Shown: one piece after another, positions 5,810 through 18,321 of the stretch | How the letters are laid out: each line of letters opens with the position of its first letter | How positions within the stretch are numbered: position 1 is the first letter of the stretch | Source of the DNA: a virus | Length of the DNA stretch: 29,939 bases | Direction: 5' to 3' (one strand) | IMG/VR virus record: IMGVR_UViG_3300031974_000601 | Location: 1-29,939 of that record | Notes under the pieces: generated by a model | Told to the model about the DNA's origin: nothing | The model's database searches: none | What the model saw: the letters and a program-made list of their open reading frames with translations, nothing else | Made by a program: the position numbers and the translations under genes

Positions 5810-5977
5810 CTATAAGATTATTCTGCTGTTATCTTCTTGTAAGATTAAATCAATATTTTCTTGTCTTAAATAAAACTCACTTTTTCTTATTACGCCAATA
5901 CCTTGCGCCCATAAACTACCATCACAACAATCTATGGAATAAGTGTTTCTGTCTTTGCAATAACAAGCCCTACTCAT
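5810..5977 (-). CDS. Cys-rich small conserved phage protein, 55 aa
   Basis: This hand-found frame opens MSRACYCKDRNTYSIDCCDG and continues SLWAQGIGVI. The C.C...(T/S)Y..DCCDGSLWAQGIG pattern is one I recall from small structural-region proteins of Bacteroidota phages. Four cysteines in the first 20 residues suggest a metal site or disulfides. It overlaps the end of the protease gene by eight bases and is followed after two bases by the 149-aa gene, so it is part of a coupled series. Function unknown. Confidence 0.72.
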   Translation of the reverse strand: MSRACYCKDRNTYSIDCCDGSLWAQGIGVIRKSEFYLRQENIDLILQEDNSRIIL

Positions 5978-6857
5978 TATCTATTTGTTTTAGTTTTCTT
6001 TGCGCCCATTCAATGCCTTCACGGCCACCCCAAGCCAAAATCATAAGTTTAGCACAACCATCCCCTAATTTCTTGTCATCATATTGTAAATGCCTTGCAA
6101 AAGCAGCCATCCTAGCAATGGTATCTCTTGTAATGTTTCTGCCTTTAGCTAATTGATTTGCTCTTTGTTTACCTACGGGTGTTCCGCAACTACCCCAACC
6201 ATTTTTCTCAGCGTATTTTAACGCCCTTTTAGCGTTGTTCTGCGCAGCTTTAGGGTAGTCGTTATATGATTCAAATTCGTATCTTAAAATCGCTTCTTTT
6301 ATCTCTAACAATTTAAGACCTGCTTCAATTTCCCTTTTTTCTTCTTGTTCTTTTTCTGCAAAAAATCCTTCAATAGAAAAACCTTTAACAACACCAGTCT
6401 TAACATAATCTTGCCAAACTTCATCATTTTCTACTTTAACACTCCCCATCCAAGTACCTACGGGTACATCTAAATCATATAATGCTGACTTGTCTTTTTC
6501 TTTATCTTCTACGATCCAACTTTCTACCAAAGTAAGTCCATCAATTTTATATAGATGCTCAAAGGTAGAATTATGCTGATTGCCTTTTTGTAAGAAAAGT
6601 TCCGAAGCCTTACGGATTGTTTTTTTAGTAAAATAAATATAGTAATCTTCTTTTTCGTCTTTTCTATATATCGCTTTGTTAGGCACAAGCAATGCACCCA
6701 TTAAGATTCTCTTTTCTTTATCTACTTCTTGAAATTTGTATTCTTTCTTTTTGTTTAAGGCTATAAAATTTTCTTCTATGGCAGGATGTTCAACAATACT
6801 AATGGCATCAATACCATTTTCTTGTTCTTCATCTATAATTAGTTCGATAATTTTCAT
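5970..6857 (-). CDS. Prohead protease (XkdF-like) with C-terminal domain
   Basis: This 295-aa protein has an XkdF-type serine protease region at about residues 40-170. ILMGALLVPNKAIYR (51-65) is followed by the QHNSTFEH segment with candidate catalytic His101, then GFSIEGFF with candidate Ser161. Such enzymes mature the head by cleaving scaffold and capsid. Residues 195-295 form a second module (YPKAAQNNAKRALKYAEKNG, CGTPVG, RMAAFARH, AWGGREGIEWAQRKL). This is a known phage-associated helical segment often fused to portal or protease proteins; its role is unclear. A recurrent upstream motif lies four bases before the start. Confidence 0.82.
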   Translation of the reverse strand: MKIIELIIDEEQENGIDAISIVEHPAIEENFIALNKKKEYKFQEVDKEKRILMGALLVPNKAIYRKDEKEDYYIYFTKKTIRKASELFLQKGNQHNSTFEHLYKIDGLTLVESWIVEDKEKDKSALYDLDVPVGTWMGSVKVENDEVWQDYVKTGVVKGFSIEGFFAEKEQEEKREIEAGLKLLEIKEAILRYEFESYNDYPKAAQNNAKRALKYAEKNGWGSCGTPVGKQRANQLAKGRNITRDTIARMAAFARHLQYDDKKLGDGCAKLMILAWGGREGIEWAQRKLKQIDNE

Positions 6858-15265: not shown

Positions 15266-15596
15266 TGATATCTATTTGAAAGTTTGTAGGCATTCCATCT
15301 GCGCCAGTTATTTCTTGGCGCTCTATATATCCTCGTTTCTTGCCTTTTGTCTTTAAATAAAATATTGTTGCGGTTGTGTTACCGTCTTTGATTTGTTTGT
15401 GTAGTTGGCTTTCTGCAAAGTCTAAAGTAATATTTTGAATATCGTCTACTTCCTTTGCAAATTCTTCATCGTCTTTAAGCCATTGGTAAAATTGTGTTCT
15501 ACCAATACCAACAGTTTTGCAAGCAGTTGTAACCACGCCTAAAGACTTCTCTAATGCTTCTATAATTGCTTTTTTATGTTGTTCGGTTTTGTTCAT
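15240..15596 (-). CDS. terS: Terminase small subunit
   Basis: This 118-aa protein has an N-terminal helix-turn-helix (residues about 5-40: AIIEALEKSLGVVTTACKTV, then GIGRTQFYQWLKDD), as used by small terminase subunits to bind the packaging site. A helical oligomerisation region with HKQIKDGNTTATIFYLKTKG follows, a hallmark of this phage HTH family. It overlaps the dioxygenase gene by four bases and the large subunit by 26. Position and motif agree. Confidence 0.88.
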   Translation of the reverse strand: MNKTEQHKKAIIEALEKSLGVVTTACKTVGIGRTQFYQWLKDDEEFAKEVDDIQNITLDFAESQLHKQIKDGNTTATIFYLKTKGKKRGYIERQEITGADGMPTNFQIDIIDKTTDRD

Positions 15597-16396
15597 ATTC
15601 CTTTAAATGCTTTTAACGGATAAAAAATCAAGCTATTACGGTAGCCACCTTCGGCAGTTGGAATGATTGGTGTTACTCCGTGTACATTTCTCCAAGCAGG
15701 GTAAACTAACATTGAGTTGTCGGCTTGTTCAAAAGTTGCGCCATAATCTGGAACATTTAACGCACCGCCCTTACTATTGTTTCTTTTGGTTATAATTACA
15801 TTAACTGCACCTTGTATATTTCCAGTATCCCTGTGAAATGGTGCGGGTATGTTGAAATTAGATATACTGCTTGTAAACATATTTCCGAAACGCCATTGTT
15901 TAGGAACATCTTCAAATAATTTTATTTGTTGATTATATATGTTTGGCGTTAATTCTTTTATTATTTTTTCACTTTCAATTGCTGAGGCTAACATCGCTTT
16001 AATAAATATTTGCGCACTTTTTTCTTTATGTACACTACTCATCGTGGGATATGGTCTGCGCATCATTGGTCTTGGGGCAACACTACCTAAAATTGTAGAA
16101 TATTGCTCTACTAAATTTTCTGTTCCTCTGCGACCATACTTTTCATAACCATCCATAATCGCACTTGCTCTTGTCATTAATGACTTTGGCACATTATTGC
16201 TTCTAAACTCTTTGTTAGCAATTGAAATTAATTTAGACAGTTTAGGGTTATAATCTGATATATTAGAAATATAAAATCCAATTATCTCACCATCTGATTC
16301 AAGCAAACAATCTTCCGTAACATTAGGTTCGTAATACGGGCAATCAGTTCCTATTTTGGTTTCGTGTTGTTTTTCTTTTAATTGTATTGTTTTCAT
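15593..16396 (-). CDS. TET/JBP-type 2-oxoglutarate/Fe(II) dioxygenase
   Basis: This 267-aa protein carries the double-stranded beta-helix signature in its C-terminal half. HRD gives iron ligands His188 and Asp190, followed by N-x-G-x-x-N, then SKGGALNVPDYG (about 208-219), VHGVTP with the third iron ligand His239, and GYRNS with Arg253 for 2-oxoglutarate. The order HRDxGN, GG.L..P.YG, VHG.TP, RYS-like is that of phage TET/JBP oxygenases, which oxidise methyl groups of pyrimidines in DNA. The N-terminal 110 residues are less defined. The gene follows a glycosyltransferase with a four-base overlap, so 5-hydroxymethylpyrimidine formation followed by glycosylation is the inferred pathway. The substrate (5mC or T) is not known. 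Confidence 0.85.
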   Translation of the reverse strand: MKTIQLKEKQHETKIGTDCPYYEPNVTEDCLLESDGEIIGFYISNISDYNPKLSKLISIANKEFRSNNVPKSLMTRASAIMDGYEKYGRRGTENLVEQYSTILGSVAPRPMMRRPYPTMSSVHKEKSAQIFIKAMLASAIESEKIIKELTPNIYNQQIKLFEDVPKQWRFGNMFTSSISNFNIPAPFHRDTGNIQGAVNVIITKRNNSKGGALNVPDYGATFEQADNSMLVYPAWRNVHGVTPIIPTAEGGYRNSLIFYPLKAFKGI

Positions 16397-17118
16397 CTTA
16401 CTTCTTTATTTAAAGACTTTGCATACCCCTTTATATCTATTTTTGCATCTATTCTGTTTTTCTTATTAACAAGTTTAGCAAACGGATGCCAAGATTTAAC
16501 TATGTTCTTTGCCCAATCTATGTCTTTTTTACTTTGGTATAAATCAAATAAACCGCCTTCATTGCTTCCTACATTTGGGCAGCTAAACCAATAATGATTA
16601 AATCTTAAAACACCATATCCGTTCTTAATTGTTTGTAATTGAAAGTCTCTATCTTCTTTTGTGTTTGGATTGTATTGCCAATTTATTTTTTTTACATTCA
16701 TTAAAACACAAACCTCCGCAAACTTGCTATTTATAGAATATGCTTTCTTTTCGTGCCAAGCGTGTTGTGTGTAATTGATTCCTATAAGTTCAAAAGGTAA
16801 TTTTTTTGCCCTTTCTAATATTTCAAACCATATATTGGCGGTTTTTTTTATTGTCTTACCATTATAAATACCAAAAGAAACTACATCATCATCACAAAAT
16901 ATTACCCATTCAAAATTGTTTTCTTTAGCGTAATTCAACATAAAATTACGGACATAAGTAACACCTTGATTATTTCGTTGAATATTTATTTTATTTGGGA
17001 CATTATATAAATCATACTCTTGTGGTTCTACAAAATGGTAAACTGGTATGTTAGCTTCTTCAAATAATTTATAGGTTTTTGTTTTTAGCCTACCTTTTGT
17101 TGGAATAAAACAAATCAT
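16393..17118 (-). CDS. Glycosyltransferase, TET-associated type
   Basis: This 241-aa GT-A-like protein starts with FIPTKGR (4-10), has R57-N58 before the donor-binding WVIFCDDDVV segment (Asp76-78, the DxD-type motif), and a candidate catalytic EDRDFQ at 155-160, then NEGGL near 186-190. This architecture matches the phage glycosyltransferases linked to TET/JBP enzymes, which share a domain with animal GREB1 proteins. It would attach a sugar to hydroxymethylated bases. It overlaps the ParB-like and dioxygenase genes by four bases on each side, a tight three-gene unit. The family name is from recall; the sugar and base are not predictable. Confidence 0.78.
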   Translation of the reverse strand: MICFIPTKGRLKTKTYKLFEEANIPVYHFVEPQEYDLYNVPNKINIQRNNQGVTYVRNFMLNYAKENNFEWVIFCDDDVVSFGIYNGKTIKKTANIWFEILERAKKLPFELIGINYTQHAWHEKKAYSINSKFAEVCVLMNVKKINWQYNPNTKEDRDFQLQTIKNGYGVLRFNHYWFSCPNVGSNEGGLFDLYQSKKDIDWAKNIVKSWHPFAKLVNKKNRIDAKIDIKGYAKSLNKEVR

Positions 17119-17693
17119 AGTTCACTTGACTTTTCTTTAAGGTACATTAAAATAATACCTCCAATGTAGGCTCCCGCACTTCTAAATTTTGATACCAGTT
17201 CTTTTGCTTCTTCGTAATCCTCAGATTCAAATTCAATTTGTATGGCAGTTTTGACATTCTTTTGCATATCGCCGACCATATTATCTAAATCTAAATCATC
17301 TAAAGCAGAATAATCAACTTCTTCTTCGGGTTGCCAAACATCCAAACCCCATTCGCCTAATTGAGTGTTATCCCATTCATTCGCTAAGAGATCCCAATCC
17401 CATTCACCAAAGCCCACATTATCCTTAATAATAAATTCTCTTTGTTGTGATTCGGTTAGGTCTTTGGCTTGTATTATGTGTACTTCCTTTAATCCAGCTT
17501 CTTGACAAGCCTTTAAGCGCATATTACCCCCAAGCACTATATTATCTTCGTTTACCACGATTGGGCGCAGTTCTAACATCTGTGGAAAGTCCTTGATGCT
17601 TTGTACTAGTTTTTTAAACTTATAATCCTTAATTATTCTTGGATTATCTTGGTTAGGCTTAACCTTACTTATTGATACTAATTGTGTTTGCAT
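17115..17693 (-). CDS. ParB/Srx-fold protein
   Basis: In this 192-aa protein residues 1-95 form a ParB N-terminal domain: SKVKPNQDNPR (9-19), VVNEDNIVLGGNMRLKAC (46-63, with GGNMR as the nucleotide-binding box), then REFIIKDN. The C-terminal part (residues about 145-190) contains IQIEFESEDYEEAKELVSKF and a GAYIGGIILMYL segment that recurs in Bacteroidota phage ParB proteins. There is no DNA-binding HTH or methyltransferase domain. ParB-fold proteins occur in many base-modification operons, where a nuclease, NTPase or kinase role has been proposed. A repeated upstream motif sits four bases before the ATG. Confidence 0.82.
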   Translation of the reverse strand: MQTQLVSISKVKPNQDNPRIIKDYKFKKLVQSIKDFPQMLELRPIVVNEDNIVLGGNMRLKACQEAGLKEVHIIQAKDLTESQQREFIIKDNVGFGEWDWDLLANEWDNTQLGEWGLDVWQPEEEVDYSALDDLDLDNMVGDMQKNVKTAIQIEFESEDYEEAKELVSKFRSAGAYIGGIILMYLKEKSSEL

Positions 17694-17720: not shown

Positions 17721-17819
17721 TTATGATGTAATTATAGCGACAAAAAGTACTATAATACCTATAATCATACCATAAAATACTGCTTTTGCCGAATATTCGT
17801 ATTGTTTATTTGTTCTCAT
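17721..17819 (-). CDS. Single-pass membrane mini-protein, 32 aa
   Basis: This hand-found frame opens MRTNKQYEYSAKAVFYGMII and ends in a hydrophobic segment (residues 14-31) with almost no C-terminal tail. It is a tail-anchored type membrane peptide. It overlaps the end of the DnaA-like gene by 14 bases. The function is unknown; superinfection exclusion or lysis timing are possible but unsupported. Confidence 0.55.
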   Translation of the reverse strand: MRTNKQYEYSAKAVFYGMIIGIIVLFVAIITS

Positions 17820-18321
17820 AATTTAATTTTAAGTATGGTTTAAGTCTTGTTGCTATAAATTCTTCCAACAAGTCATCTGACATTATATCGAAATCTTTAT
17901 ACCTGTCGGTAGGTCTTTGTGTTTTAAGTTCTTCTATTTGTTTGTTTTTATCTATTAGTGCGTTTGATAGATTAATTATTCTTTCCTCCAAACTTTCTAA
18001 ATAAGATATTTCCTTTATGTTTTGTGTGGCTACTATGTCTTTGTTTATAATAACAGATGCTCTTTTATAAAGATTGATGTATTGATTATCGTTCTTTAAA
18101 TGATTGTCTATCATCTTAAACATATGAATTATAGTAGCGTGATTCCTGTTAATTGGCTTGGCTATTTTATGTAAAGATAAATAAGGGAATATGTCTTTAC
18201 ATAGTTTAGCATATACTGCCCTAGCGGTTACGTTTTCTCTTTTTCTGTTCTTTGTGGTAATCTTTGCATTGTGTAGTCTTTCAATTACTCCAATGATTTG
18301 TTCTTGTATTTCTTTTTCCAT
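17806..18321 (-). CDS. DnaA domain IV-like DNA-binding protein
   Basis: In this 171-aa protein residues about 28-75 match the DnaA C-terminal helix-turn-helix that reads DnaA boxes. RENVTARAVYAKLCKDIFPY is followed by SLHKIAKPINRNHATIIHMF, equivalent to the GRDHSTVIHA signature. There is no AAA+ ATPase. Residues about 105-140 form a coiled-coil and the C-terminus is helical. It may bind the phage origin, recruit the host replication machinery or act as a regulator. It starts immediately after the stop of the 37-aa gene. Confidence 0.78.
   Translation of the reverse strand: MEKEIQEQIIGVIERLHNAKITTKNRKRENVTARAVYAKLCKDIFPYLSLHKIAKPINRNHATIIHMFKMIDNHLKNDNQYINLYKRASVIINKDIVATQNIKEISYLESLEERIINLSNALIDKNKQIEELKTQRPTDRYKDFDIMSDDLLEEFIATRLKPYLKLNYENK

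Follow-up and report, generated by a model that had tools for sequence, protein, structure and literature searches.

The window analyzed here is the whole of a 29,939-base virus contig from a small marine phage, IMG/VR record IMGVR_UViG_3300031974_000601, in which genes for a ParB N-terminal-domain protein, a TET-associated glycosyltransferase (TAGT), and a TET/JBP-family Fe(II)/2-oxoglutarate (2OG) dioxygenase form a compact cassette (Table 1). An earlier note, made by a model from the sequence alone, had described three coupled genes with four-base overlaps next to the terminase, and the open-reading frames lie on the minus strand as it described them, with overlaps of 4 bases between the ParB and TAGT genes (17115-17118) and between the TAGT and TET genes (16393-16396). 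The TET gene also overlaps the gene for a candidate terminase small subunit (TerS) by 4 bases, with the terminase large subunit (TerL) gene following. The most interesting feature of the locus was overlooked in that note, namely that the middle gene occupies an exchangeable slot.

Table 1 The cassette and adjoining terminase genes in the window
Feature	Position	Strand	Remarks
ParB N-terminal-domain protein, 192 aa	17115..17693	-	First cassette gene, constant across relatives; Pfam ParB_N
TET-associated glycosyltransferase (TAGT), 241 aa	16393..17118	-	Fills the exchangeable slot; GT-A-like model
TET/JBP-family Fe(II)/2OG dioxygenase, 267 aa	15593..16396	-	His188, Asp190, His239, Arg253
Terminase small subunit (TerS) candidate, 118 aa	15240..15596	-	4-base overlap with TET gene
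Terminase large subunit (TerL), 387 aa	14102..15265	-	Directly downstream

All three family assignments proposed from the sequence held, as each protein scored above the curated cut-off of its Pfam model: Tet_JBP (PF12851) for the dioxygenase (E 1e-11, 44.8 bits versus 34.9), TAGT (PF20691) for the glycosyltransferase (E 5.3e-14, 53.1 bits versus 27.5), and ParB_N for the ParB-like protein (E 8.5e-7, 29.4 bits versus 26.3). The four dioxygenase residues that the earlier note had singled out (Table 1) are all present and invariant in 161-164 aligned relatives, and in a profile alignment the HxD...H metal triad and the 2OG-binding Arg match the aligned TET2 positions. An AlphaFold2 model built from 49 window and metagenome relatives (mean predicted local distance difference test score, pLDDT, of 92.1) gave as its best Foldseek matches in the PDB TET2, CcTet, CMD1, and NgTet1, at 3e-12 to 1e-8, with TET2 at 3e-12 and a template-modeling (TM) score of 0.68, and with AlkB and FTO ranking lower. 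A PDB search with the single sequence returned no match; the profile and fold searches did. By this model, the 267-residue protein has the TET-type double-stranded beta-helix fold and does not fall among non-TET dioxygenases, and its family and fold predict that it very probably oxidizes the methyl group of thymine or 5-methylcytosine (5mC) in DNA. Homologues of this enzyme, including the window protein and L112:5980-6765, are labeled 'queuine tRNA-ribosyltransferase' in PHROGs and RefSeq.

The motifs noted for the other two proteins were also borne out. Across 69 divergent slot glycosyltransferases, Asp77 of the acidic donor site is invariant and Asp78 near-invariant, while in the EDRDF motif Asp156 is near-invariant and Glu155 is the most frequent residue. 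The structure model of the TAGT (pLDDT 88.8) matches GT-A nucleotide-sugar enzymes in Foldseek at modest TM scores of ~0.4-0.5. In the GGNMR motif of the ParB-like protein, Gly56 and Arg59 are conserved in at least 97% of ParB relatives. ParB_N was the sole domain detected in this protein by Pfam, with no helix-turn-helix or parS-binding domain, and its score against the full partition-protein model TIGR00180 was 24.7 bits, below the cut-off of 58.45; its sequence is that of a ParB-fold protein and not of a partition ParB, a ParA gene not having been searched for. PADLOC and NCBIfam gave only weak or generic matches and no defense-system identity; the PADLOC 'MTase_II' match of the ParB-like protein spans its residues 8-139. 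The ParB of phage MED4-184 carries the label 'DNA methylase'.

To place the cassette among its relatives, 179 distinct TET loci were assembled from four scans of viral contigs by TET, one scan by the slot kinase described below, and isolate records. With few departures, these loci share the frame ParB-[slot]-TET-TerS-TerL. ParB lies upstream of TET in 131 of the 132 loci having at least 1.5 kb of upstream sequence, the sole exception being Nonlabens phage P12024L, and a terminase gene lies downstream of TET in 136/143. The gene order of the window recurs in more than 130 distinct loci, which is far beyond chance. Compared with relatives of 28-31 kb, the window proteins are 64-73% (TET), 56-66% (ParB), and 41-63% (TerS) identical, values above those of the capsid, portal, and tail genes (~25-50%). 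The window TerL has no blastp match in most of these relatives, though TerS is conserved with the cassette; in several, TerS is 56-62% identical and kept with TET and ParB while TerL has no detectable blastp match. This pattern fits horizontal spread of the block ParB-slot-TET-TerS as a unit, or strong constraint on it.

Within this frame, the occupant of the slot varies. A TAGT-type glycosyltransferase of at least eight subfamilies is found in 83 of the 179 loci and an FkbM-family methyltransferase (NCBIfam fkbM_fam, 60.7 bits versus a cut-off of 37.7) in 65, the ParB-FkbM-TET arrangement including the isolates MED4-184, P-HS2, and MED4-117. A lone P-loop kinase of 150-160 residues fills the slot in 14/179 (L021, L023, L037, L052, L074, and L212-L220), and its end product, perhaps phosphorylated 5-hydroxymethyluracil (5hmU), would be new if stable. 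Three loci of the 179 hold an amino acid:DNA transferase (ADDT) together with the kinase, the ADDT being detected by Pfam PF18724, which is also the family of phage M6 gp51. In L221, a 510-aa fusion of ADDT and slot kinase (L221:4887-6419) adjoins a PLP enzyme and the TET gene; the slot of L230 holds ADDT, an FAD oxidoreductase, and the kinase, and that of L234 a glutamine amidotransferase, ADDT, and the kinase. Three further loci (L226-L228) carry ADDT and kinase between TET and TerS. The slot is empty in 5/179 (L144, L162, L164, L165, and L206), with TET directly abutted or overlapped by ParB, a junction also recorded for L145 and L163, which suggests that some phages may make do with an uncapped 5-hydroxymethyl product.

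Exchange of the slot gene between near-identical cassettes is both recent and clean. TET genes whose products are 98.1-98.9% identical adjoin different slot genes, either a TAGT versus a kinase or two TAGT subfamilies, and in the best pairs DNA homology stops and restarts within ~25 bases of the slot edges. Loci L016 and L019, with TETs 98.9% identical and two different glycosyltransferase subfamilies in their slots, are 97% identical in DNA as far as 21 bases short of the ParB stop codon; the match resumes 24 bases ahead of the TET start, and the DNA between these two edges shows no similarity. In L015 (TAGT) and L021 (kinase), the TETs are 98.1% identical and the flanks match; similar pairs exchange FkbM for TAGT, or FkbM for an empty slot. 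ParB is not exchanged along with the slot gene, its identity having a median of 92% and a minimum of 78% in 48 non-redundant pairs with TETs at least 90% identical and different slots. As a parsimony minimum, a quick TET tree calls for 10 or more switches in slot chemistry and 37 or more in fine slot class. Assembly chimeras were considered as a source of the swaps and rejected, as contigs from different metagenomes show the same arrangements with intact reading frames and overlaps.

The slot kinase matches PHROG 800 (phrog_800), a family labeled 'terminase small subunit' that contains phage M6 gp54 (2e-39), the Tonitrus kinase (gp7), and ackermannvirus homologues. M6 gp54 is, we assume, the characterized 5-hydroxymethyldeoxyuridine (5hmdU) DNA kinase. 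The profile of the slot kinase aligns to this family past the P-loop, through a GKYD-S-G-D-L motif, and the assignment rests on the PHROG match and this alignment because neither M6 gp54 nor the slot-kinase profile retrieved an informative relative from the PDB. A terminase role for the phrog_800 slot gene was rejected, given that the family holds M6 gp54 and the Tonitrus kinase and that most such loci already have a TerS. The misleading label is repeated in RefSeq (L195:21686-22249, which is M6 gp54). A purified M6 5hmdU DNA kinase exists, and phages M6, ViI, and phiW-14 are believed to rely on 5hmdU together with its DNA kinase (PMC6449724); Rhodococcus phage Tonitrus has been described as carrying a 5hmU DNA kinase (PMC11955845).

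Taken as a whole, the cassette is best read as a post-replicative DNA hypermodification module that converts thymine to 5hmU by TET and caps the resulting hydroxyl with the slot enzyme, a reading to which we assign a probability of roughly two in three (0.66). Acting on thymine in phage DNA, the TET/JBP enzyme would oxidize the base's 5-methyl group and leave a hydroxyl handle, and in the window phage the TAGT would add a sugar to it, so that a base-J-like glycosyl-5hmU is the probable product of the cassette. The ParB-fold protein probably keeps TET and the slot enzyme on phage DNA or directs them to it, and expression coupled to the terminase genes implies that marking of the DNA probably takes place late, ahead of packaging or in the course of it. 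Relatives that swap the slot gene for other hydroxyl-capping enzymes would let a constant oxidase and ParB serve many end products, and the diversity of the slot is probably under selection by host restriction. The thymine substrate, the transfer of sugar to DNA, the role of ParB, the timing, and the anti-restriction benefit are steps that we infer. The earlier note had proposed a glycosylated hydroxymethyl base and left the pyrimidine open; the family assignments, the TET fold, and the terminase coupling are supported, as is a hydroxymethyl-pyrimidine glycoside as the likely product, and thymine is now the more likely base, ahead of cytosine. A broader proposal has even odds in our estimate: TET action on thymine in finished DNA would be a universal hub, and single-gene recombination would swap the cap (sugars of several kinds, a phosphate, a methyl group, amino acids, or no cap at all) while oxidase, ParB, and TerS stay. 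The window phage would then have a viral counterpart of base J, formed by the trypanosome route and needing no nucleotide-pool hydroxymethylase.

Thymine is favored over 5mC because no C5-methyltransferase accompanies the cassette in the window and because 5hmU-kinase and ADDT partners stand in the same slot of relatives. To our knowledge, such partners have thymine precedents only. No C5-methyltransferase (PF00145) was found in the window, in MED4-184, Tonitrus, or P12024L, or in eight relatives with redundant-looking ends (exact in G007, G016, and G033; approximate in G003, G011, G013, G040, and G042), and no thymidylate-synthase-type hydroxymethylase (PF00303) in 26 records including the window. 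The L221, L226, and L234 TETs, which have ADDT and kinase as neighbors, share 55-58% identity and all the motifs with the window TET, and the L021 TET beside a lone kinase is 98% identical to one beside a TAGT; the simplest reading is that one TET product, 5hmU, is offered to different capping enzymes. On a cytosine route, a C5-methyltransferase of the host, or an undetected one of the phage, would make 5mC, TET would oxidize it to 5-hydroxymethylcytosine, and the TAGT would glycosylate that. We consider this route unlikely, yet several observations lean toward it or weigh against thymine. C5-methyltransferase genes occur in 5 of 68 searched records, all five from relatives and two of them ~1 kb upstream of ParB; the window lacks a terminal repeat and may therefore be short of a gene; the 5hmU DNA kinase and ADDT are absent from the window itself and occur in relatives' slots; the match of the slot kinase to the characterized kinase family is distant (~20 bits, with E-values from a tiny search space); and the family label of the window TAGT, phrog_842, is 'beta-glucosyl-HMC-alpha-glucosyltransferase'. 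Host-made 5mC is a possible substrate as well. On the other side, the TETs from records with a C5-methyltransferase differ from the others neither in family nor in slot classes, and the alignment pairs the TET2 histidine in ...FYQH..., which presumably contacts 5mC, with Leu261, a leucine present in 158/161 relatives. A cytosine route is known for other phage TETs, and those studied by experiment act on 5mC, with a C5-methyltransferase alongside (Burke 2021, cited in PMC12730594).

The overlap of TET with TerS and the retained terminase frame could also mean that the cassette marks DNA mainly for packaging, to be read by TerS or TerL, and not to block host restriction. The conservation of TerS with TET and ParB in relatives with a divergent TerL is in keeping with this; however, the cap chemistry swaps freely while TerS is unchanged, so that recognition of the cap as such by TerS is unlikely, and the adjacency may reflect late co-expression alone, which makes a packaging mark improbable as the main purpose. 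Least probable of all is action on targets other than DNA bases, such as RNA, protein, nucleotides, or cell-surface glycans. The double-stranded beta-helix and GT-A folds are generic, and the TAGT model also matches glycosyltransferases that act on protein and lipid in Foldseek, but the nearest TET folds are DNA base oxidases, ADDT and the 5hmU DNA kinase family are among the partners in relatives, and the ParB and terminase context is invariant.

Parts of the module have precedents. Phage TET-TAGT operons with a 5hmU-glycoside product were proposed in 2013 by Iyer et al. (as described in PMC4111573), and those operons share the same Pfam families with the window; the difference here is a slot between ParB and TET that near-identical cassettes exchange gene by gene, including for non-glycosyl chemistries. 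Cytosine systems of TET, C5-methyltransferase, and glycosyltransferase were demonstrated later by Burke et al. 2021 (as described in PMC12730594), and in these, too, TET first oxidizes the base in phage DNA and glycosylation comes after; their route is defined by the C5-methyltransferase, the gene absent from the window and the eight relatives. Thymidine hypermodification in M6 and ViI is similar in the 5hmU DNA kinase and ADDT homologues found in relatives' slots, but M6 has a gene of the thymidylate-synthase type, and its 5hmU is believed to come in through the nucleotide pool (PMC6449724), whereas the 26 searched records lack PF00303 and TET would make 5hmU in DNA. Tonitrus resembles the relatives in having ParB-like, TET, ADDT/aGPT-PPlase2, and 5hmU kinase genes near the terminase and no PF00303; it differs in being an actinophage with another gene layout and a TET only ~27% identical, and its 'thymine hypermodification' is a published prediction without chemistry (PMC11955845). 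Kinetoplastid base J, made by JBP1/2 and a glucosyltransferase, offers the same predicted order of thymine oxidation in DNA and then glycosylation, in contrast to which the window has a phage setting, a compact single-domain TET, and an unrelated gene context. No earlier report of the exchangeable slot was found in the searchable literature, key primary papers lying outside that search. The modular exchange slot thus appears to be new, while TET-TAGT operons and a phage 5hmU glycoside were already known or proposed.

The closest matches of the window TerL are Flavobacterium phages, at 39% identity, which makes the flavobacterial phage suggested earlier plausible. Scanning bacterial and archaeal genomes brought up no relative, and therefore no prophage or host can be named. 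Just upstream of the cassette, window positions 17806-18321 encode a protein with a DnaA C-terminal helix-turn-helix domain (Bac_DnaA_C, 36.7 bits). The putative prohead protease (5970-6857) resembles Nonlabens phage P12024L in its N-terminal part, and its C-terminal ~95 residues are 36-55% identical to haloarchaeal tailed virus proteins.

TET/ParB pairs that are nearly identical yet accompany different slot enzymes amount to swap experiments made by nature and, if the reading of the cassette is true, would provide a direct genetic system for asking whether phage TETs make 5hmU from thymine in DNA. Two sets of labels are corrected, those of 5hmU kinases as 'terminase small subunit' and of TETs as 'queuine tRNA-ribosyltransferase'. 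The reading, if true, would also extend the range of DNA caps with new ones and supply a base-J-like pathway from a virus, and it would show how DNA hypermodifications diversify, in that phages may re-dress their DNA gene by gene.
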